This document shows, piece by piece, positions 32,470-53,059 of a stretch of DNA of 64,000 bases. The DNA comes from Pontiella desulfatans (GTDB lineage: Bacteria > Verrucomicrobiota > Kiritimatiellia > Kiritimatiellales > Pontiellaceae), in the NCBI RefSeq assembly GCF_900890425.1, contig NZ_CAAHFG010000001.1, forward strand, positions 2,232,001-2,296,000, given 5' to 3'. Position 1 is the first letter of the stretch, and each line of letters opens with the position of its first letter. The notes beneath the pieces are model-generated. The model did no database searches. It was given only the letters and a program-made list of their open reading frames with translations, and was not told the DNA's origin. The position numbers and the translations under genes are program-made.

Positions 32470-34986
32470 CTACTGCCATGCTCGCAGGCGCCCAAAGAGA
32501 GCTCCGCCAGGCGCGTGTTCGTCCGAAATGCCAACGCGAACACGGTCAACTCCGGTTCCGAAGAAGTCATCATCAACCTCGATCGTTGTTCCGCTGAGGC
32601 CGTTCGTCACAAGAGTCCAACCCCCGTACCTGAGGCCCGTTGCAAACTCTACGCCCGCTTCGACGGAGCCTATGGAGCCGTCCCAGCGCCGGTAGATGAT
32701 AACAAGTTCGCCCGGGATCTCATCGTTGTAAGTCGGCTCCAATCCGGAGGCATCCGCCATTCCGTTTGTCGCACCGTAAAGGTAAGCCAGTCCGTTGGCG
32801 ACCCCATCGCCATTCGCGTCGTCCCCAAAGGCGGCATCCGCAACATCCAGGTCGGCAGCCCACTTTTCATAAGTAAAGGCGGGCGGTTCATCCAGCACGG
32901 CGATTTTACCATTCACGGCCAACAAGTTATCCCAGTACAGCCCTGGCGCCGGCTGGGCAGGTTCGATGCTCCAGTCGCCCCCTCCGGAGAGCGCCTGATC
33001 GAAAACGGCGAATTCCTGCCCCGCCGCATAGGGAATTCCGATGTTTTCCACGCTCAGCGTGCCGGCATTGCTCACGCTGTATGTCCCGGTCAGACTCACC
33101 CAGGCGGAAGCCGGGAGGGCTCCGGGATCAACCGCGATATCCACATCAAGCCAGCCGTCACCGTACACGGATCCGGAATTAGAGATCGGACCTCTCGGAG
33201 CGAGGGTCAGGACTTTGCCGTTCAGGTTAACGGACATTGCCATGCTCAACTGTGACTGAGACGAAACCTGCCACACCTGGTTGGACTGCAACACAATCTC
33301 TCCACCCCCGCCGATGGTCAGGCTATGGGTTGTATTTGAAAGATTAATCCCTCCTTCGTAAATGTTCAGCGTACCGGTGATGGGATCCATGGTGACATCC
33401 CGAGTCAGGCTCTCTTCCAGACGGATCTGGTTCATGTCTTTGGTTCCGCTGAGGGACGGATTGTTGTCTCCCGTGAAGGCAGAACTAAAGGCCACCACAG
33501 TGATCGGAGAGTTGACCTGCGAGCCGTCCCAGTTCCCTGATCTGTACCATTCGGCACCGTCGCTCGCACCCCCAGTCCACTGAACGCTTACTAAGCCATC
33601 CACCGAAACCGCGACGTCCTTGCTCAGGGTCGCGGTTCCGCCCTTCATGTCCGATACGACAACTTCAACCGTGTAGATCCCGGGTTCATCCCAGGTTTTC
33701 GTCAAGACGTTCGAACTGGTGTTGTAAGGTTCGAGCTTGTCGCTGGTCTCCCACATGCAGGCCACTTCGTCGCCATCCGGATCGTTTGGCGCAACGGTGA
33801 TGGACAGGGGCACGCCGGGCTTGCAGGAGAGCGGAACATCCCATGTCGGCGACGGAGCCGCATTGCCGCTAAAGTCGCCCCGGTTGATCCGCACATCGAT
33901 GTATTCGTTGGGCGCATCGCCGCCCCGCCCGAGGTTGGTGATGTAAACCAGTCCGACATCGTCGGCATAGGTTTCTCCCGGCTGCAGAGCCTGGTCATCG
34001 AATGCTTTCGATGTCCCCGGATGCATATCGAGGCTGACCGTGCTCCCGGTTCTGTCGCTTGGATCGTTGACATCTCCGCGATCCCAATAGAAAACCAGGC
34101 CTTGACGCATGGCATGATTCATTCCATCGCCCTTGTTGTTATCGGGATTATTTACGTATTGGTTCTCCCAGAGACGCGAGCGGAATCCGATCCAGAAATC
34201 CGTGCTGGTGCCTCTATCCTTCCGCCTTACCTGCAGCGCCCGCTTTGTGAGATTGGTGCTGATGTCAGGATCGTCGAACGAGTAGAGGCGCTTGGTATAA
34301 CTGCCGTCACTTGTGATACTGTAATAATCGGTGATCCAGCCGCGCGTTATCTTGTCAAACGGCTCCGGATCGATCGAGCCCGTCTTCATGAAATGCCAGG
34401 CATCCGGATCGGTCACAGTACCCGATAGCGGATTTTTCGTGGCGTCCGGCTGCATCCGCTGTTGATGCGACCAAGCAAAGGAGTGCCCGAATTCATGCAT
34501 CATGGCACCGCCGTTGCCTTTCAGCCAGACGCGGCTGCCGCCGACAGTCGACTTGTCTCCAGAGGAATGGGAGCCGTGGAAGAAGACGACAATACCATAG
34601 TTGGCCGGATCGTACCCCTGAGCCCCGGCCTTGTTCTCAGCGGCGGTGGCGAGCGTGGAGCCGGTATAGGAGCCCTTATTGTTCGGTAACGTGACCTCCA
34701 CCGTGTCATATTGGCTGAACTTCAGCTCGCGGTAAGAGAACCGCTCGAAATTACCCTTCGCCAGCTCGATCTTGTTGATAATCGTGCCAAGGCTGGGAGC
34801 GTCGTTGGAATCGGCGAATTTCACGCGGATGCCCAGCACTTTCACCCACCCCTTGCTTGGGGCAGCCTCGGCAGGTTCCATCATCGCACAAAGGAGGAGC
34901 ATTAACGACGCGGTCAGCCACCGGCGATGCGTGAACCGGAAAGCGCCGGCCAAAGTCCTGATTGCCAATATTGCCATTTTTTTCAT
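32470..34986 (-). CDS. Secreted metzincin-type metalloprotease with PKD-like domain
   Basis: Start set to ATG 34986 (AAGGA eight bases upstream), giving 838 residues. After a long signal peptide (ends EPAEA) comes a protease domain with zinc motif HEFGHSFAWSH (H164, E165, H168, H174) and a Met-turn near M200 (AWHFMKTG). A PKD-like Ig domain follows (PNDPDGDEVACMWETS to VEVVVSDMKGGTATL), then beta-helix-like sequence and a tail with ANGDGVANGLAYLYG. The HExGHxxxxxH pattern resembles M11/M12-type metzincins. A paralogue lies at 48665. The promoter carries the CCCGGG palindrome. Confidence 0.85.
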   Translation of the reverse strand: MKKMAILAIRTLAGAFRFTHRRWLTASLMLLLCAMMEPAEAAPSKGWVKVLGIRVKFADSNDAPSLGTIINKIELAKGNFERFSYRELKFSQYDTVEVTLPNNKGSYTGSTLATAAENKAGAQGYDPANYGIVVFFHGSHSSGDKSTVGGSRVWLKGNGGAMMHEFGHSFAWSHQQRMQPDATKNPLSGTVTDPDAWHFMKTGSIDPEPFDKITRGWITDYYSITSDGSYTKRLYSFDDPDISTNLTKRALQVRRKDRGTSTDFWIGFRSRLWENQYVNNPDNNKGDGMNHAMRQGLVFYWDRGDVNDPSDRTGSTVSLDMHPGTSKAFDDQALQPGETYADDVGLVYITNLGRGGDAPNEYIDVRINRGDFSGNAAPSPTWDVPLSCKPGVPLSITVAPNDPDGDEVACMWETSDKLEPYNTSSNVLTKTWDEPGIYTVEVVVSDMKGGTATLSKDVAVSVDGLVSVQWTGGASDGAEWYRSGNWDGSQVNSPITVVAFSSAFTGDNNPSLSGTKDMNQIRLEESLTRDVTMDPITGTLNIYEGGINLSNTTHSLTIGGGGEIVLQSNQVWQVSSQSQLSMAMSVNLNGKVLTLAPRGPISNSGSVYGDGWLDVDIAVDPGALPASAWVSLTGTYSVSNAGTLSVENIGIPYAAGQEFAVFDQALSGGGDWSIEPAQPAPGLYWDNLLAVNGKIAVLDEPPAFTYEKWAADLDVADAAFGDDANGDGVANGLAYLYGATNGMADASGLEPTYNDEIPGELVIIYRRWDGSIGSVEAGVEFATGLRYGGWTLVTNGLSGTTIEVDDDFFGTGVDRVRVGISDEHAPGGALFGRLRAWQ

Positions 34987-35490: not shown

Positions 35491-35510
35491 AATATAAACC
35501 GCGAAAGGAA

Positions 35511-36332
35511 TTAGTTCTGCAAGCGACGACGGAAGAACAGGAGCACGCCCCCCGCCACACCAATCAATCCCAAGGCGGCCGGTTCCGGGATAACCGTTAC
35601 AGAATCCAATTTGATTCTTGTGCTGTCTCCTCCGGTGTCAGTTCCGGTTCTATAACCTGTTCCGACACTGACATCTCCAGTGAAAAATGTGTTTTTAGTC
35701 GAACCAGTGCCGTCGTTAAAGTTGGCAGTTGAATTATGCCCGGCGCCAGTACCCGACCAATCTATGTTCCAGTTACCTTGCCCGCTGTTACCATCTGGAT
35801 TAATGCTAAGGCTAAGTGTGAAGTTTTTGCTGAGGTCAAGGTTTGTGTTGGTCCAATCCTTCAAGAGATATTCTTTAGTACCGCCAGCTTTACCAATTAT
35901 CTTATACTTATGCTCGCCTTGAGCATCTTTGTAATCATTGTCCACTATAACCATTATACCGCCCGTCATGCCAGGAGTCGTCAGGGCACCGTTCCCTAGG
36001 AAAAATGACGCGTAATTGGCTTTATTTAAATAACCAATCCCCTTCGTTACAAACGTAGCCGTCACACCCTCACCCGCCAGAGCGTCGAATTTATCCTTCG
36101 AATGGATACCGACGCTTTTCGCTGCGGTTGCGGTGTCATAGATATCAAGCTGACCGCTGGATTCCACATATTTCAAATTTGTACCCGTATCAAACTTGTA
36201 AAAACCGGTACCATCTCCCCATTGGTTTGATCCAACGTCACCATCATTAAAATTATCGCTGATGATCGACGCTCCGGCGGTAAGTACCACCGCATTGATC
36301 ACGGCCATAAGGATCATCATTTTTTTATTCAT
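35511..36332 (-). CDS. PEP-CTERM sorted secreted protein
   Basis: Start at 36332 has GGAG eight bases upstream, giving 273 residues. Signal peptide MNKKMMILMAVINAVVLTAG, then a beta-rich body (IISDNFNDGDVGSNQWGDG, GGIMVIVDNDYKDAQGEHKY) that resembles a concanavalin/LamG-type fold. It ends with IPEPAALGLIGVAGG, a hydrophobic helix and FFRRRLQN, which is the tripartite PEP-CTERM signal processed by exosortase. Body function unknown; glycan binding is plausible. It has its own promoter/operator and terminator, so it is monocistronic. Confidence 0.85.
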   Translation of the reverse strand: MNKKMMILMAVINAVVLTAGASIISDNFNDGDVGSNQWGDGTGFYKFDTGTNLKYVESSGQLDIYDTATAAKSVGIHSKDKFDALAGEGVTATFVTKGIGYLNKANYASFFLGNGALTTPGMTGGIMVIVDNDYKDAQGEHKYKIIGKAGGTKEYLLKDWTNTNLDLSKNFTLSLSINPDGNSGQGNWNIDWSGTGAGHNSTANFNDGTGSTKNTFFTGDVSVGTGYRTGTDTGGDSTRIKLDSVTVIPEPAALGLIGVAGGVLLFFRRRLQN

Positions 36333-36417
36333 ACCACTTCTCCTTTTCTCTCTATTTTTTGCTACACACAAAAAACCAGCACACCATCGCGCTAGTCTCT
36401 TTCTTGATTGTGGTAGC

Positions 36418-36445
36418 ACCATACCGTACTATCCCGGGATAGCAA
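36418..36445 (-). promoter_or_regulatory. PEP-CTERM gene promoter with perfect CTATCCCGGGATAG palindrome
   Basis: On the minus strand TTGCTA (36445-36440), 16-bp spacer beginning TCCCGGGATAG, TATGGT (36423-36418). The palindrome (36429-36442) is perfect over 14 bp with a central CG step. Register and spacer length equal those of the metzincin promoter. Confidence 0.65.
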
Positions 36446-36626: not shown

Positions 36627-36639
36627 CTTGGTGCTATTT

Positions 36640-37089: not shown

Positions 37090-38535
37090 TTAATTTGTGT
37101 ACATGAACTTCGATAGTGTTACAGCCCCGGGATAAGGGTCATCTGTTTCGCTGATCCATTGAAGGATTCGATCAAAGAGTTGTTGCTTGATGGTCGCATG
37201 GGCCGGGTCATCTTTAAGATTGTTTAACTCATACGGATCTGCCACGAGGTCATAGAGATCATTCACTGAATTAATCGTTAGTGGTGCGGTGCTATCGCGA
37301 AGAATCAATTTATAACGATCAGTCACAACAGCTCTCCAAGGCTTGTTGTGAACGCAGTAGATCGAGTCGATCTCCGGCATGGAGGAACCGCGTGCGGAAT
37401 TTGCCTTATTAACGCCGGCACAGGTTTTAGGAACCGGAAGTCCGCATAAGCCCAACAACGTCGGCATGACATCCACTCCACCTATCGGAACCTCAGACAC
37501 ATGTCCGGGTTTGGTTGTTCCCGGCAATCGCATAATGAGAGGAACGCGCACAGACTCCTCTTCCGGCTTCGATTTGTCGGTCAGATTATGGGAGTAATGC
37601 ATATCCCCATGATCGGAGGTAAAGACCACGAGTGTATTATCTTTCAGCCCTTCGTTTTCTAAAAACTGCATCAGTTGCCCAAACTGATCATCAAGGGCCA
37701 TGCATTGGGCAAAGTAGAGCGCCAGATTGGATGCGCCTGTATTTCCAGATACATTGGATCGGCGATCTGCCGCGGTAACCGTATAGGTTTTATATGCGGA
37801 AGGGACTTCATTGTAGGGGGTGTGCGGAGGCCCCCATGAGAGATAGCACAACCACGGCCGCGTTCGATGAGCCCGAATAAAATCTTCGGCCAATTCCCGC
37901 TGAAACTCTGGTTCATACCGATTCAGCACCTCCGTCATCACACGGCCATCATCATCGAACATGGCCACATCGCTCGGATTGGTTGTTATATACTGATGAC
38001 CTCGATTAAACCCTTGATAGGTTTGGAATCCGCGTCGTCTCCATTCCCGAGCACTGTCACCCGGAATCCATCCTGTATTCCCTTCTGGATCGATGATGTC
38101 ATAACGCCCCTCTCCATCATAATGCGTCTTGCCGGTATAGTGCGTAGCATAGCCCGCTTGCCGGAAAATTTCAGCCAGACACCGGTTTCCAGGCGGGAGC
38201 ATCCGATTATTCTGCATGGCACCATGCTGATGGGCATAACGGCCGGTGACCAGCGTTGCGCGCTCCGGTGTGCATACCGGTGTCGTGGAATAGGATCGCC
38301 TCCATCGCGTTCCCTCCGAGGCAAACTGATCAATGCAGGGGGTTTTTACCAGCGCATCGCCATTATCCGCATGACTGAATGCGCTGTATCGCCACTGATC
38401 CGTCAAAACAAACAACACATTGGGTTTCTGCACATTGCTGGCCGCATACAATTTATTGATCGTAAGCGGAAGAGCGAGTGCTCCCAGATTACTGAGAAAT
38501 GATCGGCGCCTTAGTGTCAGTGTATTCGCGTTCAT
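37090..38535 (-). CDS. Tat-exported sulfatase with variant CTPER motif
   Basis: 481 residues. The N-terminus LRRRSFLSNLGALALPL is a twin-arginine signal, unlike the Sec signals of the other sulfatases here. Metal site LTDQWRYSA; catalytic motif CTPER with C88, where the usual Ser/Thr is Glu; GKTHYDGEG and FTSDHGDMHYSH complete the core. The substitution keeps Cys, Pro and Arg, which are needed for formylglycine formation. It overlaps the LRR gene by ATGA, so both are translated from one mRNA. Confidence 0.87.
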   Translation of the reverse strand: MNANTLTLRRRSFLSNLGALALPLTINKLYAASNVQKPNVLFVLTDQWRYSAFSHADNGDALVKTPCIDQFASEGTRWRRSYSTTPVCTPERATLVTGRYAHQHGAMQNNRMLPPGNRCLAEIFRQAGYATHYTGKTHYDGEGRYDIIDPEGNTGWIPGDSAREWRRRGFQTYQGFNRGHQYITTNPSDVAMFDDDGRVMTEVLNRYEPEFQRELAEDFIRAHRTRPWLCYLSWGPPHTPYNEVPSAYKTYTVTAADRRSNVSGNTGASNLALYFAQCMALDDQFGQLMQFLENEGLKDNTLVVFTSDHGDMHYSHNLTDKSKPEEESVRVPLIMRLPGTTKPGHVSEVPIGGVDVMPTLLGLCGLPVPKTCAGVNKANSARGSSMPEIDSIYCVHNKPWRAVVTDRYKLILRDSTAPLTINSVNDLYDLVADPYELNNLKDDPAHATIKQQLFDRILQWISETDDPYPGAVTLSKFMYTN

Positions 38536-39938
38536 TCGTAGACCACCTTCACATTATACGTAGATTGCAATATTGAGATCTGCGTCAAGGCCGTTGCACC
38601 GAGAGGATTGCCGCGTACCCACACCTCATCGCCATCTCCCAGCCCACCGTTTGCGGCATTGGTAACAAGGGATGAAAGATCGGTGAGCTGGTTATCTTCG
38701 AGATCGAGCCATCGAAGATGAACCAGCGGCTCCATCATGGAAAGATCGGTGAGCTGATTGGCCTCAAGCTGTAGCGCCTCTACTTGAGCAGGGAGAGCCG
38801 GCAGCGAAGCACTGGCGAATGCATTCGATGAAAGATTAAGCCACTGTATCGAAGAAAGAGAGGATAGTGAGCCTAACCCTGTGAGCCCAACGCCTTTTAG
38901 ATCCAGCGATTTAAGGTGCGGAAAATAGGTTAATTCACCAATGGAAAAAGCGGATTCGCTCAGTTGCAAACTCACGATCGACTCCACTTCGGCATCATAA
39001 ACCTTGTTGGAAGGTGCCAACACCGTCGATTGCTCTTTGACGGCCGAAACCAATACCGGGCTGATAATGTTCTCAAGGGCAGCGATGTTGCGTATGAGTT
39101 GAAAGAATCCTGTTTCGGCCTCATACGAGAAGGAGGCCGACTGAGCTGGGACCGTTCCGGAAGCGACTGTTAAGCCATTCGTCCGCATGCCGTCCAACAC
39201 ACCCGATGCAACGAGGATATATCGGTCGGTCAGTTGATTCCACTCGACGGTCACCGTACCAGCCGACCGCATCAGGTTAGTCAGCAACAATTCAGATGGT
39301 TGCGGCTCTCCATTGGAAGTGACCTCTAGATACAGATCATCCATACGGGCAAAATGCAAATCCTCTGCCTCCACTTCAAAGCGAACCATTAACGTTTTTC
39401 CTACTGCGAGTGCGTCGACAAAGCCCGTCGACGGAAAGGTCTTTTTCTCCCACGTCTCAACACCCGTTCGCGGGCCGGAATTCCAGGTGATGAGATCGGT
39501 TGCGGCTCCGGTTAGTGTATTGTCGCTCGTATAAAAAAGGATCACCTTGATTTGATCATCTGCATCCCAACTCCCGGAATCGCGCCACATCATTGAGCCC
39601 TGAAAGATATCTCCGCTCTGGATTGTATGGCCCATGTTCTGACCGGGCGTACGACCCTCTGAGATGACCGCATTGCGCGGTCCATACGTTGATAAAGCCA
39701 GGTTGGTACGACCAAGTGTCTTTGTATCAAGCCCCGTCAGATTATCCCAATCGGGCATTTCGGCATAGGTACGAGCATCGTGAAGGGCACTGTCGACTAC
39801 ATTCTCAAAGCCCCCATCACGCACCGCCACATCGTGAAATCCATCACTACCACCATCACTGTAATCCATGAGGATTACAACGCCCGAAGAGGATGCAGCG
39901 CCCATTAGAAGCACCATCGATAATATCCAATATTTCAT
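38532..39938 (-). CDS. Secreted leucine-rich-repeat protein
   Basis: 468 residues; signal peptide ending near AASSSG. Residues 20-210 form a beta-rich domain (GDIFQGSMMWRDSGSWDADD, MVRFEVEAEDLHFARMDDLY) resembling a carbohydrate-binding sandwich. Residues 310-468 contain LRRs (LKSLDLKGVGLTGL, IQWLNLSSNAF, LRWLDLEDNQLTDLSSL). LRRs in secreted proteins usually mediate protein or glycan contacts; no enzyme motif is seen. It is first of a two-gene unit with the Tat sulfatase. Confidence 0.8.
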   Translation of the reverse strand: MKYWILSMVLLMGAASSSGVVILMDYSDGGSDGFHDVAVRDGGFENVVDSALHDARTYAEMPDWDNLTGLDTKTLGRTNLALSTYGPRNAVISEGRTPGQNMGHTIQSGDIFQGSMMWRDSGSWDADDQIKVILFYTSDNTLTGAATDLITWNSGPRTGVETWEKKTFPSTGFVDALAVGKTLMVRFEVEAEDLHFARMDDLYLEVTSNGEPQPSELLLTNLMRSAGTVTVEWNQLTDRYILVASGVLDGMRTNGLTVASGTVPAQSASFSYEAETGFFQLIRNIAALENIISPVLVSAVKEQSTVLAPSNKVYDAEVESIVSLQLSESAFSIGELTYFPHLKSLDLKGVGLTGLGSLSSLSSIQWLNLSSNAFASASLPALPAQVEALQLEANQLTDLSMMEPLVHLRWLDLEDNQLTDLSSLVTNAANGGLGDGDEVWVRGNPLGATALTQISILQSTYNVKVVYE

Positions 39939-39989
39939 TCAGCATCTCCTTTCGGATCAGTGACCCCACGAAAATATCATTTGCTGTGC

Positions 39990-40027
39990 TTTCCAAACCT
40001 AGAAAAACAGTTTCCAAGGTTTGGAAA
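39990..40027. other. TTTCCAA/TTGGAAA inverted repeat
   Basis: TTTCCAAACCT (39990-40000) and AGGTTTGGAAA (40017-40027) are perfect 11-bp inverted arms; a third TTTCCAA lies at 40011. On the minus strand an inner TTTCCAA-ACC-TTGGAAA hairpin is followed by CTGTTTTTCT. It could terminate the upstream sulfatase transcript or be an operator for the LRR operon. Confidence 0.5.
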
Positions 40028-40080
40028 ATCGGTTCAGCCCATTTTGAAAAGCTTGCGGATATCTCCAGCGTACGCCACCC

Positions 40081-41526
40081 TTACGGCAGGCTCCAGGCCG
40101 CTTTTGTTTTCTTCGTATACTCCTCAACAAGCCCCGCGTATTCCGGATCATCAGCCAGGTCATTCCACTCGTGAATATCGGCTGAAAGGTCAAACAAATC
40201 CTTTCCATACCCATCCAACATAAAGAAACGGTACTGCTCTGTAACCAAGCCATAGCCTTTCTTGGCCGCATAATACGCCACACCACCCCCAAGCTCTGCT
40301 TGCGTATTATCCAGCAACGGGACAAGGCTCTTTCCATCGAAGTCTACCGCGGCTGGGGTCGGGAGGCCCGCAAGATCCAGCAGGGTCGGATATAGATCGA
40401 CCGTTTCGACCACGCTGCCCACCACCTGCCCGGACACTCCCCGCCCGGGGGCCACAATAATCATCGGACAACGAAGCGCAACATGGTAGGGTGTGTTTTT
40501 CCGCCACATTCCATGATCGGTCAGGTGCCAGCCATGATCGCCCCAGATGACAATGATCGTGTCGTTTTCGATGCCCTGAGCCTTCAACTCTTCAATAACC
40601 CGCCCGATCTGTGCATCTACGTAGGATGTACTTGCCCTATATCCGCGAATGAGCCCTCTCGCCGTTTCATCATCCACACCCTCATTCCAGCCCGTCACAG
40701 AAGCCTTATTACCGAGAATGTATTTTTTTTGCAGGCGGGTAAACTCCCGTGGAGCTCCGTCCGGCATATACGCCAATGCCTCGCCGCTTTCCGGATAGAG
40801 GTCGTAGTATTTTTTCGGCGCAATCCATGGCAGGTGCGGACGCACGAAGCCGGCGGCAATAAAAAAAGGCTTATCCTTGGGACGGTTCCGAAGCAGCTCG
40901 ATGGTTTTCGATGCGGTTTTCCCATCATTAAGGGCATTATCGTCCACATCCATCGAGGCCCATACAAGGTCTCCCGAGCCCTGCCCTGTCGCCACCAGAT
41001 GATCCCAGGCATCTGCCCTTCCTCCATGGGCCACCACCTTGGCGGCTAAATCATCTGACCAATCCTGAATCCCGTCATGCCATTTTTCTCCCGCAACATC
41101 CCAGGCATCCTTTTCCGATTTAATTACGCCGCCATGGTAAAGCTTTCCGTTTACCGCCGTGTAATATCCGGCATTTTTCAGCGTTCTGGGCAGGGTATCC
41201 TGAGCCTGAATCTGCTCATTATGCTTGCCAAACCCCACGCGCAACCCCGTCAGCACCCCGGCGCGCGATGGCGAACATAACGGATAGCAGACATAGGCGC
41301 GGTCAAAACGTGCTCCTCGTGCGGCGAGGCGGTCAATATTCGGGGTAACCAGATCGGAACGACCGTAGGCTCCAATATCAGGGCGCAAGTCATCCACGCA
41401 CAGGAACAGGATATTGGGCTGTTTGGATGCCCTCCCATCTACCGCAACACGCTCTGCCGCCAAAGTACAACCACAGAACATGGCAAGCCATGCACAATGC
41501 AACCCGACACGATTAAACAATGACAT
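40081..41526 (-). CDS. Secreted sulfatase, iduronate-2-sulfatase-like
   Basis: 481 residues; signal peptide MSLFNRVGLHCAWLAMFCG, metal site CVDDLRPDIGAYG, catalytic CSPSR with C84, then NGKLYHGG and WGDHGWHLTDHGMWRKNT. DDLRPDIGAYG and GDHGWHLGEH-like motifs are typical of the S1_7/iduronate-2-sulfatase group (tentative). It starts 32 bp after GH128 and is third in the sulfatase-GH128-sulfatase operon. Confidence 0.9.
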   Translation of the reverse strand: MSLFNRVGLHCAWLAMFCGCTLAAERVAVDGRASKQPNILFLCVDDLRPDIGAYGRSDLVTPNIDRLAARGARFDRAYVCYPLCSPSRAGVLTGLRVGFGKHNEQIQAQDTLPRTLKNAGYYTAVNGKLYHGGVIKSEKDAWDVAGEKWHDGIQDWSDDLAAKVVAHGGRADAWDHLVATGQGSGDLVWASMDVDDNALNDGKTASKTIELLRNRPKDKPFFIAAGFVRPHLPWIAPKKYYDLYPESGEALAYMPDGAPREFTRLQKKYILGNKASVTGWNEGVDDETARGLIRGYRASTSYVDAQIGRVIEELKAQGIENDTIIVIWGDHGWHLTDHGMWRKNTPYHVALRCPMIIVAPGRGVSGQVVGSVVETVDLYPTLLDLAGLPTPAAVDFDGKSLVPLLDNTQAELGGGVAYYAAKKGYGLVTEQYRFFMLDGYGKDLFDLSADIHEWNDLADDPEYAGLVEEYTKKTKAAWSLP

Positions 41527-41558
41527 AATACAATCTCCTGATTATCTTTTAAAAAAAT

Positions 41559-43031: not shown

Positions 43032-43059
43032 AACCCACCCAATCGGTTGCACAAACCTT

Positions 43060-44418
43060 CTAATCCTTCTTTTTCCGGATCAGCTTAAACTTACTCGCAT
43101 CCTTTTCCTCGCCTGGGCGGTTCCATCGGAAGTCCTTCCAGCGAGGCGGGGGCATGGTTGCATTCCAACGGTCCCATTGCTTTTGCAGTTCTTCCATTTT
43201 TTCGGGATGCTGCGCGGACAGATCATGATCTTCAGCTGGATCATCGGCCAGATTGATGAGTCGCGGCGGTTCGTCATAGGCGGCACTGACAATCTTCCAA
43301 TCGCCGTGCCGCACCGCATATTGCGTTCCAAAGCGCCAATACAGGGTACGCTCATCCAGCGCCTTTTTCCCTTCCAGCATCGGCAGCAGGTTCACGCCAT
43401 CGAGCCCCCACTCCGGTTTATTCTCCATACCCGCGGCCGCCAGGGCCGTGGGCAGAATATCCAGCTGAACCACCGGCTCCGAGGAGACACGGCCGGGCGG
43501 AATGCGCCCCTTCCACGCCGCGATAAACGGCACGCGTATTCCACCTTCCCACAGCAGCCATTTTTTCCCGGACAACCCGCCCATATCGGCTTCCTTGCAA
43601 GCACCGCCGTTATCGCTTAAAACAAAAATAAGCGTGTTCTCTTCGAGCCCCAGCGAACGCAACCGATCCATCAGATCCCCGACCGCGTCATCCAGTTCGG
43701 CAATCATAGCCGCATAGGCCTTGCGCTTGTTGTCGAGATGGTCAAAGGCCTTCAAGTATTTATCGCTGGCCACCAACGGACCATGCACCGAGTTGGGCGA
43801 AAAATAGAGCAGCCAGGGCTTGTCCCGGTTATCTTCAACAAACTGCAGAGCCCGCTTGCGGTATTCCGGCATGGTAAGCGGGAACTCCGCAGGATCGTCC
43901 GCTGCCCCCCCACCCTCGAACATATGGTAACCGTCCGTTTTTTCGGCCGGATTGCTGATCGTTCCATAGGCATAGTCAAATCCACGCGCCGGCGGCAGAT
44001 ACGCCTCGCCGCCTCCCAAATGCCATTTACCGATGATCCCGGTGGCATATCCCCCGGCTTTCATCCGCTGCGCCATAGTGACTTCGGTAAGAACCAGCTT
44101 GCTCGTTGGATTCTTGGCCGTCGTATTCGAATCATGTCCCGTGTGCTGGGGATAACGCCCCGTCAACAGGCCGACCCGACTCGGGCCGCAGACCGGCGAT
44201 GAAACATACCCGTTATCAAAACGAATACCCTGCGCGGCAATCGAATCAATCCGCGGCGTCGGAGCCAACGCCCCCCCATAGCACCCAAGGTCCCCCCAGC
44301 CCATGTCATCGATATAGATCACGAGAACATTGGGCTTGGCCGCCAACTCGGCACACCAACCAGTACAAACCCCGAATGCCACCGCAAAAACAAGCAACGC
44401 TTTTTTAGTCATTGTCAT
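43060..44418 (-). CDS. Secreted sulfatase, first gene of sulfatase-GH128-sulfatase operon
   Basis: 452 residues; GGAGA six bases before ATG; signal peptide ends near GWCA. Metal site YIDDMGWGDLGCYGG; catalytic CGPSR with C77; GKWHLGGGEAYLPP; LSDNGGACKEADMGG. A normal-length arylsulfatase. The promoter region contains the palindrome ATAGCCCGGGTTAG about 125 bp upstream. Confidence 0.92.
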   Translation of the reverse strand: MTMTKKALLVFAVAFGVCTGWCAELAAKPNVLVIYIDDMGWGDLGCYGGALAPTPRIDSIAAQGIRFDNGYVSSPVCGPSRVGLLTGRYPQHTGHDSNTTAKNPTSKLVLTEVTMAQRMKAGGYATGIIGKWHLGGGEAYLPPARGFDYAYGTISNPAEKTDGYHMFEGGGAADDPAEFPLTMPEYRKRALQFVEDNRDKPWLLYFSPNSVHGPLVASDKYLKAFDHLDNKRKAYAAMIAELDDAVGDLMDRLRSLGLEENTLIFVLSDNGGACKEADMGGLSGKKWLLWEGGIRVPFIAAWKGRIPPGRVSSEPVVQLDILPTALAAAGMENKPEWGLDGVNLLPMLEGKKALDERTLYWRFGTQYAVRHGDWKIVSAAYDEPPRLINLADDPAEDHDLSAQHPEKMEELQKQWDRWNATMPPPRWKDFRWNRPGEEKDASKFKLIRKKKD

Positions 44419-44528
44419 TTACTCTCCTTCAAACCCGAAAAAAATCTGCAACAAATCGGTGCGCCCCCGTTCCCGGTACCCTTTTCGATCAATCCCGGCA
44501 AGCGGAAACGTCCCCACTCAATCCAAAA

Positions 44529-44557
44529 TAAATACACTTCATAGCCCGGGTTAGCTA
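44529..44557 (-). promoter_or_regulatory. Promoter/operator of the sulfatase-GH128 operon
   Basis: On the minus strand TAGCTA (44557-44552), 17-bp spacer starting ACCCGGGCTATG, TATTTA (44534-44529). The palindrome ATAGCCCGGGTTAG is at 44541-44554, in the same register as at the metzincin and PEP-CTERM promoters. Confidence 0.6.
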
Positions 44558-44652
44558 GTTTTTTAAAAAAAATACCGCCCTCCCCAAAAAACCTCAACAA
44601 CCAAGTCCTGAAATCCTTTCCAAAAACAGGGAATGCCCCATCCAATAAGAGA

Positions 44653-44703
44653 TTGACAGGATTCGACTTTCACAATATACACCCCTTCACTATTCCGGGT
44701 TAG
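44653..44703 (+). promoter_or_regulatory. Near-consensus promoter with CTATTCCGGGTTAG at the start site
   Basis: TTGACA (44653-44658), exactly 17 bp, TATACA (44676-44681): a near-perfect vegetative promoter. The palindrome CTATTCCGGGTTAG (44690-44703) covers the predicted start of transcription, where a bound repressor would block the polymerase. The sulfatase ATG is about 20 bp further on. Confidence 0.75.
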
Positions 44704-44725
44704 TCACAGAAAAGGAATCATGTTT

Positions 44726-46453
44726 ATGAAATTTGAATACAGTCATCACATCGCGCCGGGGGCAACCCGGCGAATCGCCTGTGCCGCCTCGGCCCTCGCC
44801 CTGCTCCTGCCCCTTGCCCCCGCGCAGGCATCCAGCGAGCCGACCGAAAAAACGATGAACCTTCTTTTTATCATCTGCGACGATTTGAACAACCTCGTCC
44901 GCGGCCCCAACGCCCATCCGCAGACCCAAACCCCTAACATGGACCGGCTCGCCCAGCGCGGCGTCTCGTTCGTCAACGCCCAGGCCAACGCCCCCCTCTG
45001 CGCGCCGTCGCGCTACAGCCTGACCACCGGCCTGTATCCGCATACGCTCGGCGTAAATGAATTTGTATTCATTCCCTGGAACAAACTCCCGAACGCAAAC
45101 CGCACCGTAACCTACATGGATTTCATGAAGGAACGGGGCTACCACGTCTATGGCGCGGGGAAAGTCTTCCACAACCACTCCGACAAACGGGATGCTTTCA
45201 CCTGGCCGGACGGAAGCGACCACCTTCACTCCGTCGCCAACTGGGGGCCCTGGCCATGGAACGGATCCAAAAAGGGCCGGTCGGACTGGGGCTGGTCCAC
45301 GCCCCACCCCAATCTGCCCGGAACGTTCACGCATGACTCCGCCTATGCCCCGCTGTCGGACATTCCCGAATTCCCCGCCGATCCCGGCAACAACGTGGCC
45401 GGCGCCAAGGGTTGGTATATCGACCGCCGCGACGGCAAACTCTGCCAGCCGTTTCATTACAACGGCCCCGACGACCGCGACCTTATGCCGGATGAAGCGA
45501 ATGCGGAGTGGGTCAACGGCCTGCTGAAGGGCAAGGTGAAGGAACCCTTCATGATTTCACTCGGCATGAACCGCCCGCATACGCCCATGTATGCCCCGAA
45601 GAAATATTTTGACAGGTTCCCGCTCGACACCATCGAGCTGCCGGAAGTCGCCGACAACGACCTTGCCGATGTTGCCACCGATATGCTGCGGGATGCGCCG
45701 GGGCGGGCATGGGGCTTCATCAAATATGATCACGTCACCAACAAGGACAACTGCAACGGCGACGGCATAAACCGCTGGAAAGAATGGATTCAGGCCTACC
45801 TGGCCAACGTCGCCTTCGTGGACGACCAGATCGGAAAGGTGCTGGACACCCTCGAAGAGAGCGGGCTGTCCGAAAACACCATCGTGATTGTCACCAGCGA
45901 CAACGGCTACCACATGGGCCAGAAGCAGTACATGCATAAGAACACCTTGTGGGAAGAGAGCTGCAATATTCCGTTGATCGCCGCAGGCCCCGGGGTCGCC
46001 AAGGGCAAGTCCTGCGAAAAGCCGGTATCGCTGATTGATCTCTACCCGACCTTCCTCGATTTTGCCTCCATCCACGAAGATCCCTACGCCAACGATGAAC
46101 ACTTCGCTTTGGAAGGAACCAGCCTGCGCCCGCTGCTCGCGAATCCGGCATCCACGAATTGGCCCGGGCCGGCGGTTGCCTTGTCGGAAATTTCCGGCCT
46201 GCCCCACCCCGGCGGGACGCCGTTCATCCAGCGCATGACGAAGGAGGACTTCCACTATTCGGTCCGCTCCAAAAAATATCGATACATCCGCACCAAAAGC
46301 GGACAGGAGGAACTCTACAATCAAATCGAGGATCCTCACGGATGGGAAAACCTTGCCGGCAATCCCGATTCCAAAGGCGTACTGAACGACCACCGCCGTC
46401 AGTTAAAGCTCATGCTGTCCGCCCGGGAAGGCGACCAGGGCGCAGCGAAATAA
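44726..46453 (+). CDS. Secreted sulfatase, first gene of a fucosidase operon
   Basis: 575 residues from ATG 44726 (AGGA nine bases upstream; ATG 44720 is only three bases from it). Signal peptide ends near PAQASS. ICDDLNNLV metal site; catalytic CAPSR at C92; GAGKVFHNHSDKRDAF; TSDNGYHMGQKQYMHKNT. It belongs with choline-sulfatase/iduronate-2-sulfatase-like enzymes (tentative). The fucosidase 27 bp downstream suggests sulfated fucan or another fucose-bearing glycan. Confidence 0.9.
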   Translation: MKFEYSHHIAPGATRRIACAASALALLLPLAPAQASSEPTEKTMNLLFIICDDLNNLVRGPNAHPQTQTPNMDRLAQRGVSFVNAQANAPLCAPSRYSLTTGLYPHTLGVNEFVFIPWNKLPNANRTVTYMDFMKERGYHVYGAGKVFHNHSDKRDAFTWPDGSDHLHSVANWGPWPWNGSKKGRSDWGWSTPHPNLPGTFTHDSAYAPLSDIPEFPADPGNNVAGAKGWYIDRRDGKLCQPFHYNGPDDRDLMPDEANAEWVNGLLKGKVKEPFMISLGMNRPHTPMYAPKKYFDRFPLDTIELPEVADNDLADVATDMLRDAPGRAWGFIKYDHVTNKDNCNGDGINRWKEWIQAYLANVAFVDDQIGKVLDTLEESGLSENTIVIVTSDNGYHMGQKQYMHKNTLWEESCNIPLIAAGPGVAKGKSCEKPVSLIDLYPTFLDFASIHEDPYANDEHFALEGTSLRPLLANPASTNWPGPAVALSEISGLPHPGGTPFIQRMTKEDFHYSVRSKKYRYIRTKSGQEELYNQIEDPHGWENLAGNPDSKGVLNDHRRQLKLMLSAREGDQGAAK

Positions 46454-46480
46454 TTTCATAACCACCACAAAAAAGGAAAA

Positions 46481-48367
46481 ATGATGAATCCCCCCTTAAA
46501 ACACATATGCATTACGACCCTTATGACGTTGTCGCTGATGGCATCAGCGGCGACATCTCAAGAGATCACGCTGAAACCGTATCATCCGCAACATCCCGAC
46601 ATGCAATGGTGGCGCGACTCGATGGAAACACGCGACGAACGCCTGCAGTGGTGGCGCGAGGCCCGCTTCGGCTGTTTTATTCACTGGGGTGTCTATTCCC
46701 GGCTGGCCGGAGCCTGGAAAGGTGAACGGGCACCGGGCTACTCCGAACACATCATGAAAAAATTCGAGATTCCAATGGCGGTCTATCGCAAAGAAGCCGT
46801 CGAACCGTTCAATCCGGTCGATTTCGACGCCGACGAATGGGTTCGAACCATCCATAACGCCGGAATGCGCTATCTGGTGATTACCGCCAAACATCACGAT
46901 GGATTCGCGATGTACGATTCGGATTGCTCCGACTACGACATCGTCGATGCAACTCCGTTTAAACGCGATCCCATGAAGGAATTAAAGGCGGCCTGCGACA
47001 AGTACGGTGTTCGGCTCGGTTTCTATTATTCGCACTCTCAGGATTGGAGCCATCCCAAAAGCACGCACAACTACTGGGAATTCGGTCATCCGAGGGACCG
47101 ATGGTGGCACGGCAAGGAAAAGTACAAAGCGCATATCGCCAATGTGCGGGAATATATGGACGAAAAGGCGATCCCCCAGGTGCTTGAGCTCAGTCGGAAA
47201 TATGATCCGGATCTGTTCTGGTTTGATACGGCATTCTGGGCGCCCGCGTCCGAAAACGTGCGTGTTCTTAAGGCCCTGCGAGAAGAAAACCAGACGGCGA
47301 TCGTAAACAGCCGAGTCATCAATTCAATCCCCGGTTTCGATGAGGATAGAAGACTGGGCGATTATGCGACAACACAAGACAAGCCGGCGGAATTTCGTCC
47401 TCAGGGAGAAGGTGATTGGGAGGCCATTCCGACAACAAACGAATCCTACGGCTATCATCGCATGGACAACACGCATAAACCTGCATCGTACTTTATCGGC
47501 GTGCTCATTAAATGCGTGGGACGCGGCGGCAATCTCTTGATGAATGTCGGCCCCCGAGGCGACGGAAAGATCGACGACAAGGATGTTGCCATCCTCAACG
47601 GCATTGGGGAATGGATGAGCATCAACGCGGAGTCGATTCATGGAGCGGGGCGCTCTCCGTTACCGCTTCAGGCATGGGGAGAATCCACACGCAAGGGCCA
47701 GGTTCTGTATTTGCACGTGTTCGACTGGCCCAGTGACGGCCGATTGACCGTTGGGGGCTTAACGGAGCAGATCGACAAGGCATATCTGCTGGCCGACAAA
47801 ACACGGTCGCCCCTGAAAGTCGAACGATTGAACGAACTGGATGCCGTCATTCATGTGCCGACCGAAGCCCCCGACAGCAGCGTATCAACCATCGCCGTCG
47901 AGGTCGCTGGAGAAATGTCGGTCGACACAGATCGCCTTCTATCCAATCAAACATCCAATAAATTTCACGTGTTTGACGCTCGATTGGACGGCAACCTACG
48001 GTGTGGCCCCGGGCACATTCATGAAGATTTTGTAACCGACTGGTCAAAGAGTTCCGATCGGGTCATCTGGCCGGTCCGATTGAATGAAGACGCTTCGTTT
48101 GAAGTATTGCTAACCTATTCCGCCAGCAGGAAGAAGACGACGGAAGGAGGCACTTTTGTTTCGACCATCGGCGATCAAACGCTGTCCGGACCGGCGGTCG
48201 ACGGTGTCAGGGAGCAAACGTCTTCCCTTGGCAAGATCGATTTAAAACAGGGCACGTTCGAAATCTCCATAAAACCAGACCAGATCGAAGGCTCCGAATT
48301 CATGAACCTTCACTCGATTACATTACGTCCCTTACCCAGCGAATCGCCAAAAACAATGGACCTATAA
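46481..48367 (+). CDS. Secreted GH29 alpha-L-fucosidase
   Basis: 628 residues; AAGGA precedes tandem ATGs; signal peptide ends near SAATS. GH29 features are in order: FGCFIHWGVYSRLAGAW, ITAKHHDGFAMYDS, GFYYSHSQDW and PDLFWFDTAFW with nucleophile D249. RGGNLLMNVGPRGDGKI and a C-terminal beta domain complete the family. It would remove terminal fucose outside the cytoplasm, working with the upstream sulfatase. Confidence 0.94.
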   Translation: MMNPPLKHICITTLMTLSLMASAATSQEITLKPYHPQHPDMQWWRDSMETRDERLQWWREARFGCFIHWGVYSRLAGAWKGERAPGYSEHIMKKFEIPMAVYRKEAVEPFNPVDFDADEWVRTIHNAGMRYLVITAKHHDGFAMYDSDCSDYDIVDATPFKRDPMKELKAACDKYGVRLGFYYSHSQDWSHPKSTHNYWEFGHPRDRWWHGKEKYKAHIANVREYMDEKAIPQVLELSRKYDPDLFWFDTAFWAPASENVRVLKALREENQTAIVNSRVINSIPGFDEDRRLGDYATTQDKPAEFRPQGEGDWEAIPTTNESYGYHRMDNTHKPASYFIGVLIKCVGRGGNLLMNVGPRGDGKIDDKDVAILNGIGEWMSINAESIHGAGRSPLPLQAWGESTRKGQVLYLHVFDWPSDGRLTVGGLTEQIDKAYLLADKTRSPLKVERLNELDAVIHVPTEAPDSSVSTIAVEVAGEMSVDTDRLLSNQTSNKFHVFDARLDGNLRCGPGHIHEDFVTDWSKSSDRVIWPVRLNEDASFEVLLTYSASRKKTTEGGTFVSTIGDQTLSGPAVDGVREQTSSLGKIDLKQGTFEISIKPDQIEGSEFMNLHSITLRPLPSESPKTMDL

Positions 48368-48664
48368 CAGGAAAGCGTTTCTTTCAAAATATATCAAAAT
48401 GCCGATGGGCAGACTGTAAATCAAAATGCCCGCTTGTGATGATTAGGCACAACGGGCGGATAAAACGAAAGGCCTTGGCCTTTAAAACGAAGGAGTAAGC
48501 ATAGAACGCCTCAAACCCAATTTGAGCGTGTCCGTTTTCGAGGAAATGCGCTTTTACAAGCATTTCTGAGCAAGGACCACTCAGAAGAAACGGTGGCGAC
48601 TTCTGCAGTCAGAGGTTGCCGTGGAGCTAATAATAAGAACAACTGGAATAAAGGAGATAGTATT
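48368..48664. other. Gap with two hairpins upstream of the large metzincin
   Basis: GCCCGCTTGTG (48428-48438) pairs with CACAACGGGC (48448-48457), one bulge; AAAGGCCTTGGCCTTT (48468-48483) is a 7-bp hairpin. Neither has a strong T-run. They may end the fucosidase transcript or structure the metzincin leader. No gene and no CCCGGG palindrome seen. Confidence 0.45.
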
Positions 48665-51600
48665 ATGAAGAGGGCATCACTGGATATAACGCGGGCAAAT
48701 TGTCGACGGTTCAGCCACCAACTGAAAACAGGCTTAATATCGGTCTTGCTGCTCTTTCGGTTCGGCTCGGCTTATGCCGCCGAATTCACGGGCACCCACA
48801 AGGTGCTTGGCGTACGCGTATTGTTTGCGGACGCCTCGGATGCACCCAGCGAATCAAGCATCAACAGCCTGCTCCAAGGCGCCAAGGACAAATTCGCGCG
48901 GTTCTCTTATGACAAGCTGACCCTCAACCCCGAAGTTGCGACGGTTACGCTGAACAACAACCGGTCAACCTACGACAACGATGAAATGAAGAACGCGGCG
49001 GAAACGAAGCTGACGAACGCCGGCTACAAGCTCGGCGACTATGAAATCATCGGCTTCTACCCGGGAGGGGGATCGTTTGGGTCTCACGCCACGGTGGGCG
49101 GCCATCAGTTCGTTTCCAGTAGCAACGGCGGTTCGACCCTGCACGAGATGGGGCATAACTTTGCCTTCAAACACCAGTCCGTCTGGCTTCAGTCCAGTGG
49201 TGACCCGGGCCCGCTCGCACATGGGAGTTTCACAGAGACGGATCCCTTTCACTTTATGTGCGGAAGCAGCTCGATTACCCCGAGCGGCGTCGATCCGGAA
49301 CCGTACGAGAAGTGGCAGAGGGATTGGATTACCGGACGCTACAAGGTTGATAGCAACGGGAGCTACACCTATCGCATTTACACTTTCGACCAGCAGTATA
49401 CCGACTCCGCCAACGATAAGCGGGCCATTGAAGTAGGACGCGGCGGCGGCAAGGATGGTTCGGTATGGTGTGGTTATCGTTCCACGTTGCTCGAAAACAA
49501 CAACCACCTGAACCAGGGCCTGGTGATTTACTGGCAGCCCGGCGGAGCCAGCACTTCCGCTCTGATCGATGCGCACCCCTGGTCGGGATATGGGCCGTAC
49601 GGCACAAGCAACCACGCGCTCCAGCCGGGGGAAACGTGGTCGGATCCACCGAGCGAAATCCACATCACCAACTTAGGCAATGGCGGAACCGATCCGAATA
49701 AATACATGGATGTTCAGGTCAACCGCGGTGCCTTCAGCAACAACCAGGCGCCCGCCCCCACGTGGGACGCACCGGACACATGGACCACCGGCACTCCGCT
49801 GACCATCACCGTCACCGGCAATGACCCGGACAGTGACGAAGTGGTATGCATGTGGGAAACCAGCAACAGAAGCAGGCCCCACAACACCTCCGCCACCAAC
49901 CTCACCGTCACCTTTAGCAACGACGGCTACTACGATGTCGAGGTAACAGTGAGCGATATGAAAGGGATGACCGCCACCAAGAAAAAGACCATCGTGGTGC
50001 GCCCGGCCGGTTCCGAAGAGCGCACGTGGGATAGAGGCGCAGGTGACAACTTCTGGAGTAAAAAGGTCAATTGGACCCAAAACATCCTGCCTATCAGCAC
50101 CGACACGGCGATCTTTGACGGGAGAACCGACCCGAATGATTCCGTCTATGTCGACGACGACACAACGATCTTCGACATAGAATTTAACCAAAATGACACA
50201 GACTTTAGATACTATATCTCAAGCGACAATGCCGGATCCACGCGGAATCTCACCCTAAAAGGAAACGTCGTGAACGATACGACCAAGAATCAAATTTTCC
50301 GGCGAAATTCCGTTAACGGGAATCGGCTAAACCTCGTGCTAAGCAGCGGCAACCATACCTTTGACGCCGCCGCCGGCGACATCACTGTCAAAGTCAACAT
50401 CCAAGGCGATGGCGGACTGATCAAGGAAGGCCCCAACGAACTGTCACTCGAAAGCTGGACGGGGGCGAGTCCCGCAAGCTGCGCTAACAGCTACGTCGGC
50501 ACCACCACGGTCAAGGCGGGGACCCTGGGGCTCGGCAAAAACGATGGCACTGATGCCATTGTCGGCGACATGACCATTGGCGACGGTACCGGCACGGACA
50601 TCGTGGTACTTAGATCAAATAATCAGATTAAGAATACTTCGGAGATCTCGTTCGACGGTACAGACGCCATCTTGCGCATCAACGGCAAAACCGAAACAGT
50701 GGGCGGCATCCAAAGTCTTGACCCCGCAAAACCGGGCGTGATCGAAAACAACAGCACTGCAAGTGCTGTTCTGACCGTGCAAAACAACGAAGATAACGAT
50801 TTTCACGGCAGAATCCGGAATGGAGCCAGCGGTGGGCTGGCCCTGGTTAAGACGGGCACGGGCACGCTTACGCTTTACGGAACGAACAACACTTACAGCG
50901 CCGGCACAACGGTATCGGCAGGAAGGCTCGTCGTTGCCAACGAATCCGGGTCCGCGACCGGTAGCGGAAGCGTCGATGTCAATGGATCATCGGCAGCCCT
51001 GTCGGGCAACGGCACGATTAACGGTAGTCTGACGCTGGACAACGCTGAGATCGAGCCCGGAAGTGGTGGAGCGGGAACATTGACGGTTAACGACGACACG
51101 AGCATGACGACCGACACCGTCATGGTTTCTACCCTCCAGGGCACGAACAGCACGCAACTGGCAGTAAATGGTGACCTAGTGCTGGACGGTACTTTGAATG
51201 TGGTCGACGTCGAAAGTTCTTATTATCCTGAAGGTAGCTATACCATAGCGACCTACACCGGCACACTGACCGACAATGGTCTTGTGGTCGGCACGGTTGC
51301 CGATGAAACGATGACCTATCAGGTGAGTACCGCCACATCGGGCAGTGTGATCCTGACGCTCACCGACTTCAATGTTGCACCAACGGCGATCGAAGAGACT
51401 GAAAACATCAACGAAGATTCTGCCATTGAAATAGATGTGCTGAACAACGATTACGATCCCGACCCGTTTGATACGCTGGTGATTGACTCGGTCACCCAGC
51501 CGGCGAATGGCGCAGTCGTTGTCACCACGAATGAAACAGTCATCTACACGCCGCCTGCCAACTATTACGGAACAAACAGTTTCGACTATGTGATCAGCGA

Positions 51601-53059
51601 CGGCAATGGTGGAATGGCAACCGGAACGGTGAGTCTGACCGTAGTGTCGGTGAACGACGCGCCAGTCTTTACAGCGAGCCCAATCATAACTGCATCAGCA
51701 CAGGAGGGGGCAACGTATAATGCATCTATTGCCGGTTCAGCGGTTGATGTGGAAGATGATAGTCTCAGCTATCAAAAGTTAACGGGTCCTATCTGGCTGA
51801 GTATTGCTGCGAATGGTGCGTTGTCTGGTTCTCCGCAAGTGAGCGATATCGGAACCAACAGCTGGACGGTAGAGGTGTCCGATGGCTTCGCAACGGATAC
51901 AGCAACACTGGAAATTACGGTAACGGTAGACCCTTCTCCTCGCATTGCTGTAACGGAATACTATCTGACAACCAACGACTTCAGCGGAACGAGTGCAACG
52001 CTGACGCTCGACCATGATCTGGCGGATGACTACTACATTCTGATCCGTGGATCGAGAGTCGGGAATGCCCTCAGCAATCCGGACAACGACTATGCACGTG
52101 TGACGGCGGTTCCGGGCGGTAAGGGCGATCTGTCTAACTCCGGTGCAACCGATCAGATCACGATTGGCCGCTGGACGGCGGACTTCGACTGGGAAGGGGT
52201 TGTGACGGTGGTTGAGTGCGATAACTCCGCCGATGCCGCCGGCTTCAAACTGGTCGACGTTGTTGCAACACCGCTGACCGCGGTTTCGGGCACCGACACA
52301 TCAGCTTCCTGGACCGACCTGAGCCGCGTGGTGCTCTTTGGCGGCTATCGTGGCGGCGGCGCGGCATTCACGGAGGATGGTGGTCGCAACAAGGGAGTAA
52401 GCGTCTATACACGTCTCTATCCGAGTAGTACGGGCACGATCAACTGGTCGCGCGACGCAGGCGGGGAGACGATCAAGAACGCGATCATGACGACCTTCGT
52501 GGTGGAATGGGGTAGCGAGTGGACTGTGCAGCACGTGAACGTCTCCGGCGCCAATGGCGGCGACGGAGCCGATGCGACGGGCGAGTATACGACCGGAGCG
52601 ATTACAAGCGTAGCACGCGACAACACGTGGGTATGGGGTACGGGTACGCGGGCTGATGCCGGTATTGGTGACTGTGCCGAGGCCTGTTTGGTGACGCTGG
52701 GTGACGGTGTCAGTCAGAATGCATCGGAGACCACCGTTGCCGTAGGCTCGGAATATACCGATGCGTATAATTTCGATGTGTACACTATGACGCACGAAAG
52801 CTTGTTGGTGGATCATGTGTTTAAAGTTGATGGTGACTACGCCGCCAGCGATCTTCCGATTGTTGTTGATACAACCACTTCCGGAGCTCGCTTTGGCTGG
52901 ATCTATAATGGATGTAACGCAACAGGCGACTGGCATCCGCGCTCGCGCTTCTGGGCGCGCTACACCGCCGACTCCACCATCACCGTAGGGCGCGGACTTT
53001 CCGGTCAGGACTTCCCCGCCTGGGTCCAGGGTATCGACCTTTCGGGTCTCAATGAATAA
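48665..53059 (+). CDS. Giant secreted metzincin metalloprotease with PKD, beta-helix and cadherin-like domains
   Basis: 1,464 residues from ATG 48665 (AAGGAGA upstream). Signal peptide ends SAYAA. The protease domain has HEMGHNFAFKH (H160, E161, H164, H170) and a Met-turn at M198 (FHFMCG). A PKD-like domain follows (GNDPDSDEVVCMWETS), then autotransporter-type beta-helix repeats (LVKTGTGTLTLYGTNNTYS, GNGTINGSLTLDNAEI), a cadherin/VCBS repeat (DVLNNDYDPDPFDTL) and a He_PIG-like domain (LSGSPQVSDIGTNSW). About 360 C-terminal residues are of unknown type. The first half matches the 32470 protein closely, so the two are paralogues with swapped tails. Confidence 0.86.
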   Translation: MKRASLDITRANCRRFSHQLKTGLISVLLLFRFGSAYAAEFTGTHKVLGVRVLFADASDAPSESSINSLLQGAKDKFARFSYDKLTLNPEVATVTLNNNRSTYDNDEMKNAAETKLTNAGYKLGDYEIIGFYPGGGSFGSHATVGGHQFVSSSNGGSTLHEMGHNFAFKHQSVWLQSSGDPGPLAHGSFTETDPFHFMCGSSSITPSGVDPEPYEKWQRDWITGRYKVDSNGSYTYRIYTFDQQYTDSANDKRAIEVGRGGGKDGSVWCGYRSTLLENNNHLNQGLVIYWQPGGASTSALIDAHPWSGYGPYGTSNHALQPGETWSDPPSEIHITNLGNGGTDPNKYMDVQVNRGAFSNNQAPAPTWDAPDTWTTGTPLTITVTGNDPDSDEVVCMWETSNRSRPHNTSATNLTVTFSNDGYYDVEVTVSDMKGMTATKKKTIVVRPAGSEERTWDRGAGDNFWSKKVNWTQNILPISTDTAIFDGRTDPNDSVYVDDDTTIFDIEFNQNDTDFRYYISSDNAGSTRNLTLKGNVVNDTTKNQIFRRNSVNGNRLNLVLSSGNHTFDAAAGDITVKVNIQGDGGLIKEGPNELSLESWTGASPASCANSYVGTTTVKAGTLGLGKNDGTDAIVGDMTIGDGTGTDIVVLRSNNQIKNTSEISFDGTDAILRINGKTETVGGIQSLDPAKPGVIENNSTASAVLTVQNNEDNDFHGRIRNGASGGLALVKTGTGTLTLYGTNNTYSAGTTVSAGRLVVANESGSATGSGSVDVNGSSAALSGNGTINGSLTLDNAEIEPGSGGAGTLTVNDDTSMTTDTVMVSTLQGTNSTQLAVNGDLVLDGTLNVVDVESSYYPEGSYTIATYTGTLTDNGLVVGTVADETMTYQVSTATSGSVILTLTDFNVAPTAIEETENINEDSAIEIDVLNNDYDPDPFDTLVIDSVTQPANGAVVVTTNETVIYTPPANYYGTNSFDYVISDGNGGMATGTVSLTVVSVNDAPVFTASPIITASAQEGATYNASIAGSAVDVEDDSLSYQKLTGPIWLSIAANGALSGSPQVSDIGTNSWTVEVSDGFATDTATLEITVTVDPSPRIAVTEYYLTTNDFSGTSATLTLDHDLADDYYILIRGSRVGNALSNPDNDYARVTAVPGGKGDLSNSGATDQITIGRWTADFDWEGVVTVVECDNSADAAGFKLVDVVATPLTAVSGTDTSASWTDLSRVVLFGGYRGGGAAFTEDGGRNKGVSVYTRLYPSSTGTINWSRDAGGETIKNAIMTTFVVEWGSEWTVQHVNVSGANGGDGADATGEYTTGAITSVARDNTWVWGTGTRADAGIGDCAEACLVTLGDGVSQNASETTVAVGSEYTDAYNFDVYTMTHESLLVDHVFKVDGDYAASDLPIVVDTTTSGARFGWIYNGCNATGDWHPRSRFWARYTADSTITVGRGLSGQDFPAWVQGIDLSGLNE

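Follow-up and report, generated by a model that had tools for sequence, protein, structure and literature searches.

The window analysed here, a stretch of 64,000 nucleotides from Pontiella desulfatans, encodes two paralogous proteins predicted to be secreted metzincins, which carry different tails behind one common head. The unusual part of the larger protein is a mobile and conserved module at its C-terminus together with a partner gene, rather than the protease. The two protease genes, P0001 and P0002, are arranged as follows:

32470 to 34986, minus strand: P0001 gene, a secreted M11/M6-like metzincin with the tail taken as ancestral in its clade
37090 to 48367: genes between the proteases (four sulfatases, a Glyco_hydro_cc protein, an LRR protein and a GH29 fucosidase), given as context only
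48665 to 53059, plus strand: P0002 gene, a secreted M11/M6-like metzincin with a swapped tail

The P0001 open reading frame (32470-35052, minus strand, 860 aa) is open up to a GTG at 35052, and its likely start, judged from the ribosome-binding site, is the ATG at 34986, which yields 838 aa. For P0002, whose frame (48593-53059, plus strand) comprises 1488 aa, the ribosome-binding site makes the ATG at 48665 behind AAAGGAGATAGTATT the likely start (1464 aa), in agreement with the preliminary description of this DNA. An N-terminal export-type segment is found on the protease proteins. At the sequence level, P0001 and P0002 are similar far beyond chance (BLASTP 345 bits, E 2e-105, 37% over 670 aa).

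The assembly consists of six contigs with 8.66 Mb in total, and the G+C content of the window is 52-58%. Published values for P. desulfatans F1 are 8.6 Mbp, 56% G+C and 548 Pfam sulfatases (PMC7356697, PMC6388578), with sulfatases accounting for approximately 8% of the genes (PMC6388578). We counted about 555 sulfatase candidates in the 8.66 Mb, or one per approximately 16 kb; because sulfatases occur throughout this genome, their proximity is weak evidence for the role of a protease. Next to P0001 lies the gene of a 1106-residue protein (28845-32165) without Pfam match at E 0.001. A small secreted protein (35511-36422) has a PEP-CTERM-like end, VIPEPAALGLIGVAGGVLLFFRRRLQN, and an exosortase-type sorting system is therefore probably present in this genome.

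The common head and its relatives

The head common to both proteins comprises about 415 residues and consists of a metzincin catalytic domain, a beta-sandwich and a PKD domain, the latter above the Pfam cut-off in both. The catalytic heads are 44% identical. Their features are:

33868 to 34851, minus strand: P0001 catalytic domain and beta-sandwich (profile coordinates)
34465 to 34497, minus strand: P0001 zinc site HEFGHSFAWSH, with Ala at the metzincin Gly position
34387 to 34389, minus strand: Met of the P0001 Met-turn, in HFMKTGS (from the alignment)
33607 to 33864, minus strand: P0001 PKD domain (PF18911 3.5e-07 and PF00801)
48791 to 49741, plus strand: P0002 catalytic domain and beta-sandwich (profile coordinates)
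49142 to 49174, plus strand: P0002 zinc site HEMGHNFAFKH, with Ala at the Gly position
49256 to 49258, plus strand: Met of the P0002 Met-turn, in HFMCGSS
49742 to 49993, plus strand: P0002 PKD domain (PF00801 2.8e-06)

The preliminary description had recognised the shared protease and PKD domains but had overlooked the beta-sandwich between them; the motifs it quoted, the zinc site and PDxDEVxCMWETS, are found in both proteins, and the Met-turn, which it had left unlocated, reads HFM in both. All ligands of the metzincin motif HExxHxxGxxH are present in the two heads, with Ala in the Gly position. Residues H127, E128, H131 and H137 are invariant in all 49 aligned head relatives, and the Met of the Met-turn (M163 of the model) is conserved in 48 of them.

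An AlphaFold model of the P0001 head, built from the alignment of the 49 relatives, reached a pLDDT of 90.9. The M6 peptidase InhA2 (4yu5/4yu6) superposes on catalytic domain and beta-sandwich of this model over 293 residues (Z 19.6, 3.2 Å, 17% identity), the alignment running through the Met-turn region, and the third head domain aligns structurally with the PKD domains of ColH and ColG. A predicted structure that lacks the zinc site or the Met-turn, which the preliminary description had named as its refutation, was not obtained, judged by the conservation of the residues and the match of the fold to InhA2. That both heads are metzincins of an M6/M11-like build is thus a well supported prediction from residues and fold. 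The earlier claim that the two are paralogous and secreted metzincins sharing a head and differing in their tails is borne out by the BLASTP comparison, the conserved residues, the model, the match to InhA2 and the comparison of the tails.

Neither of the two peptidase families accommodates these heads entirely. M6 peptidases have the motif HExxHxxGxxD with Asp as third ligand and Gly within the motif, whereas the window heads have His and Ala at these positions, and the third ligand is His in 49 of 49 head relatives. M11, the family of the Chlamydomonas wall lysin, shares HExxHxx[G]xxH and the Met-turn, yet the M11 profile PF05548 does not match the P0001 and P0002 heads, where Gly is replaced by Ala, and the window proteins are bacterial and multi-domain, with PKD domain and long C-terminal tails. 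Because the PF05548 score is not attained and the third ligand is His rather than Asp, P0001 and P0002 were filed neither as M11 nor as M6. Matches of the heads to PF12044, Reprolysin and M66 were at motif level only and were rejected.

The head is also not confined to this pair, as a search for further paralogues, proposed in the preliminary description, uncovered six heads in the genome: P0001, P0002, three on contig C1 (1.124-1.141 Mb) and a divergent one on contig C5, all reached by a single profile. The first five belong to one diverged clade, while the C5 head (HELGHNYGSYH...YGDFMDIMG) is of ordinary M11 type and passes the curated PF05548 cut-off of 21 with 27.5-29.9 bits. The clade (14 rows, SH-aLRT 100, on a long stem) extends to marine Verrucomicrobiales and unites the five copies of this genome with sequences from Roseibacillus, Akkermansiaceae and related MAGs, and within it P0001 pairs with the Verrucomicrobiales sequence NP75 (63% identity, support 95). 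Sampled genomes of the same genus have one head each or none, and the well-aligned ones are of the C5 type. Horizontal exchange followed by duplication would be a simple, although not proven, reading of the five-copy clade.

Several side observations were made. The three C1 heads (L031/L032, 1.118-1.148 Mb) are clustered beside sulfatases, and one of these paralogues, with 2535 residues, carries LamG and DUF2341 arrays. An M11-type head in genome G228 (L066) reads HELGHNYRAWH, with Arg at the metzincin Gly position and intact ligands. Finally, L060 and L061 are apparently one 16,631-base contig that was assigned once to KSB1 and once to Phycisphaerae, which probably reflects misbinning in public MAGs.

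The heads might alternatively be true O-glycopeptidases of the OgpA/AMUC_1438 kind from Akkermansia, which need an O-glycan beside the scissile bond and would attack mucin-like sulfated glycoproteins. AMUC_1438 is likewise verrucomicrobial and has a metzincin core and extra C-terminal modules; its only Pfam signal is PF12044 around HExxH, and the same weak signal occurs in four of the six heads. In addition, a SASA-type acetylesterase lies directly upstream of the protease as a conserved pair in the Verrucomicrobiales loci L040, L042 and L045 (Pfam-confirmed in L042, with like sequences in the other two), and Kiritimatiellaeota have been enriched on mucin (PMC6388578). However, the structural overlap of the AMUC_1438 catalytic domain with the head model (Z 10.0, 156 residues) is much smaller than that of InhA2, and we consider this specificity unlikely.

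Different tails, a mobile module and its partner

Behind the head the two proteins diverge, and P0002 is followed by a small gene:

32473 to 32880, minus strand: P0001 ancestral-type C-terminal domain with the Ca-loop-like DDANGDGVAN (sequence comparison, 33-52% identity)
50030 to 51322, plus strand: P0002 PATR/autotransporter-like beta region (PF12951 2.2e-10, TIGR02601 2.4e-08; extent approximate)
51371 to 51925, plus strand: P0002 Big_9/cadherin-like and He_PIG spacer (PF17963 6.6e-26, PF05345 6.1e-08)
51932 to 53056, plus strand: mobile module of about 375 aa, residues 1114-1488 of the P0002 ORF, without known family
53084 to 53113, plus strand: terminator-like hairpin with a 13 bp stem, downstream of the P0002 stop and ahead of the partner gene
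53139 to 53870, plus strand: partner gene, 243 aa, with the ribosome-binding site AGGAGG upstream of ATG 53139

The P0001-type tail, which has no Pfam match, is common to two C1 paralogues (L031a/b) and the Verrucomicrobiales loci L034, L036 and L042 (33-57% identity) and absent from P0002 and from the 2535-residue paralogue. We take it as the ancestral state of the clade, so that the two tails would differ because P0002 lost what P0001 retains. Of the tail features named in the preliminary description, the Ca-loop-like motif of P0001 is present, while its "short beta-helix" has no Pfam support; the adhesin-like domains of P0002 were recovered by profile, and the C-terminus then left unassigned at 360 residues corresponds to the module.

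The module had no match in Pfam or NCBIfam, a single weak row in PHROG (E 0.019) and no significant match among PDB sequences (E 0.85 or worse). Its distribution was searched in Verrucomicrobiota/Kiritimatiellota as well as in viral, phage and plasmid collections. Six other genomes from three classes contain copies with 59-76% identity and 148 invariant columns, one per genome as in P. desulfatans, and all seven close copies are situated at the extreme C-terminus. Their carriers include an alginate-lyase-like (PL7-like) protein (L104), a metallophosphatase (L105), a beta-helix/LamG protein (L106), a LamG-bearing protein (L116) and Ig-domain proteins (L103, L111). A distant copy in genome G865 (39-45% identical) is internal in a 2922-residue gingipain-type protein that ends in Peptidase_C25. 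Judged from these alignments, conservation of the module exceeds that of the protease heads, and the module occurs independently of these. It is rich in Gly and Trp and predicted to be mostly beta, and an AlphaFold model from five sequences was poor (pLDDT 52).

Four repeats suspected by eye within the module were rejected, since the best secondary match in a profile self-comparison had a probability of 0.4% and unit-against-unit scores did not stand out from shuffles (z -1.4 to 0.3). A phage or plasmid origin was likewise dismissed, as no relatives were found in viral contigs or plasmids and the phage collection matched only cadherin-type repeats. Weak module matches in genomes G202 and G116 seem to be antisense or chance ORFs.

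The partner protein has a basic N-terminus, one transmembrane helix, a Pro/Glu-rich linker of about 76 aa (65-86 aa across the family members compared) and a globular domain, for which neither family profiles nor PDB sequences yielded a family. Its gene is the next one after the module in five Kiritimatiellia loci (the window, L103, L104, L111 and L116), and a partner remnant follows the frameshifted module of L107. Of the 278 genomes sampled, 4 have a close partner, and each of these is one of the five with the module (Fisher 2e-8, uncorrected for phylogeny). In L103 and L104 the distance between module-gene stop and partner ATG is about 10 bases or less and there is no hairpin, whereas in the window (z -4.3) and L111 (z -4.0) a hairpin separates the two genes, so equal co-expression is not implied. 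The module has no adjacent partner in L105 and L106, and in the module genomes G236 and G865 a partner was not found. Remote partner relatives, which are probably secreted judging by their sequences, are small proteins in about 15 Kiritimatiellia genomes.

Genome G173 has an orphan partner (L139) that adjoins a GH29 fucosidase and a sulfatase. This partner without module and the partnerless module of L106 are located on one replicon of 884,666 bases (G173:C2), which is rich in sulfatases and fucosidases and which we take to resemble the fucoidan megaplasmid of Lentimonas sp. CC4. On G173:C1, the frameshifted and decayed module and partner pair (L107, 8283-9335) lies near sulfatase and GH29/GH95 genes.

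A conserved C-terminal part on varied proteins next to a small gene is reminiscent of exosortase/T9SS signals and of polymorphic toxins. If the module were a C-terminal sorting or secretion signal, with the partner as dedicated processing or export factor, its terminal position in all close copies and the adjacent membrane protein in five loci would be explained. Known sorting tags are, however, far smaller than 375 residues with 148 invariant positions; moreover, there is only one module in each genome although secreted enzymes number in the hundreds, the module is internal in the gingipain-type protein, and the invariant residues of the partner include no Cys, His or Ser. We therefore regard a sorting signal as improbable.

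A toxin/immunity pair of polymorphic type, in which varied carriers end in one constant effector and the immunity gene lies downstream, would account for one domain on unrelated N-terminal parts, for the fast evolution of the downstream gene (28-34% identity in contrast to 59-76% for the module) and for the decayed and orphan copies in G173. The carriers are nevertheless enzymes instead of secretion-system or Rhs/filamentous proteins, the module is large, highly conserved and mostly beta by prediction, no partner was found in G236 and G865 and none is adjacent in L105, L106 and G865, and the remote relatives of the partner are ordinary proteins; such a pair is very unlikely.

Proposed role in matrix degradation

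Most likely, P0001 and P0002 are secreted proteases that open a glycoprotein-rich algal matrix. They would cleave protein or glycoprotein of an algal or detrital matrix, by which sulfatases and fucosidases could reach the glycans. Pontiella strains grow on fucoidan and do not grow on amino acids or tryptone, and their peptidases have been suggested to open proteoglycans or glycoproteins (PMC7356697). That glycoproteins or algal cell-wall protein are attacked had been proposed before from the position among sulfatases; the target is plausible given this suggestion and the kinship to M11, but the sulfatases are near background density and count for little as a reason.

That the two proteins are instead inactive, zinc-binding pseudo-peptidases, on the grounds that Ala replaces the metzincin Gly only in them among the 49 relatives and that the three C1 paralogues have Gly, is highly improbable, as both retain every ligand along with the catalytic Glu and the Met-turn and the site evidently tolerates change, Asn being fixed there in nine Verrucomicrobiales homologues. 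The exchange of Gly for Ala could still alter the activity of these proteases.

In our reading of P0001 and P0002 as matrix-opening proteases, the module of P0002 may be a part without catalytic role that binds glycans or surfaces. The adjacent partner, which has a single transmembrane helix and is predicted to face the periplasm, might hold or mature the protein with the module at the cell envelope. Any enzyme fused to the module would thereby work at the cell surface or on bound substrate. SusCD-type surface machinery has been reported absent from Verrucomicrobiota MAGs (PMC8857213). A bolder version, which we offer tentatively as possible rather than probable, is that the module and the partner with its transmembrane helix, linker and domain form an undescribed two-component system for surface display or substrate docking in PVC bacteria, and that horizontal exchange of tails plugs different matrix enzymes (protease, lyase, phosphatase) into this system. 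The proposal as a whole, which adds to secreted metzincins with tail exchange a putative matrix proteolysis, binding module and envelope partner, is in our estimate evenly balanced between right and wrong.

The heads offer a natural series of Gly, Ala and Asn at a position regarded as fixed in metzincins. The formerly unassigned C-terminus has become a defined unit which is rare, mobile and unusually conserved and has a candidate membrane partner, and it is found in bacteria known for the digestion of sulfated algal polysaccharides.
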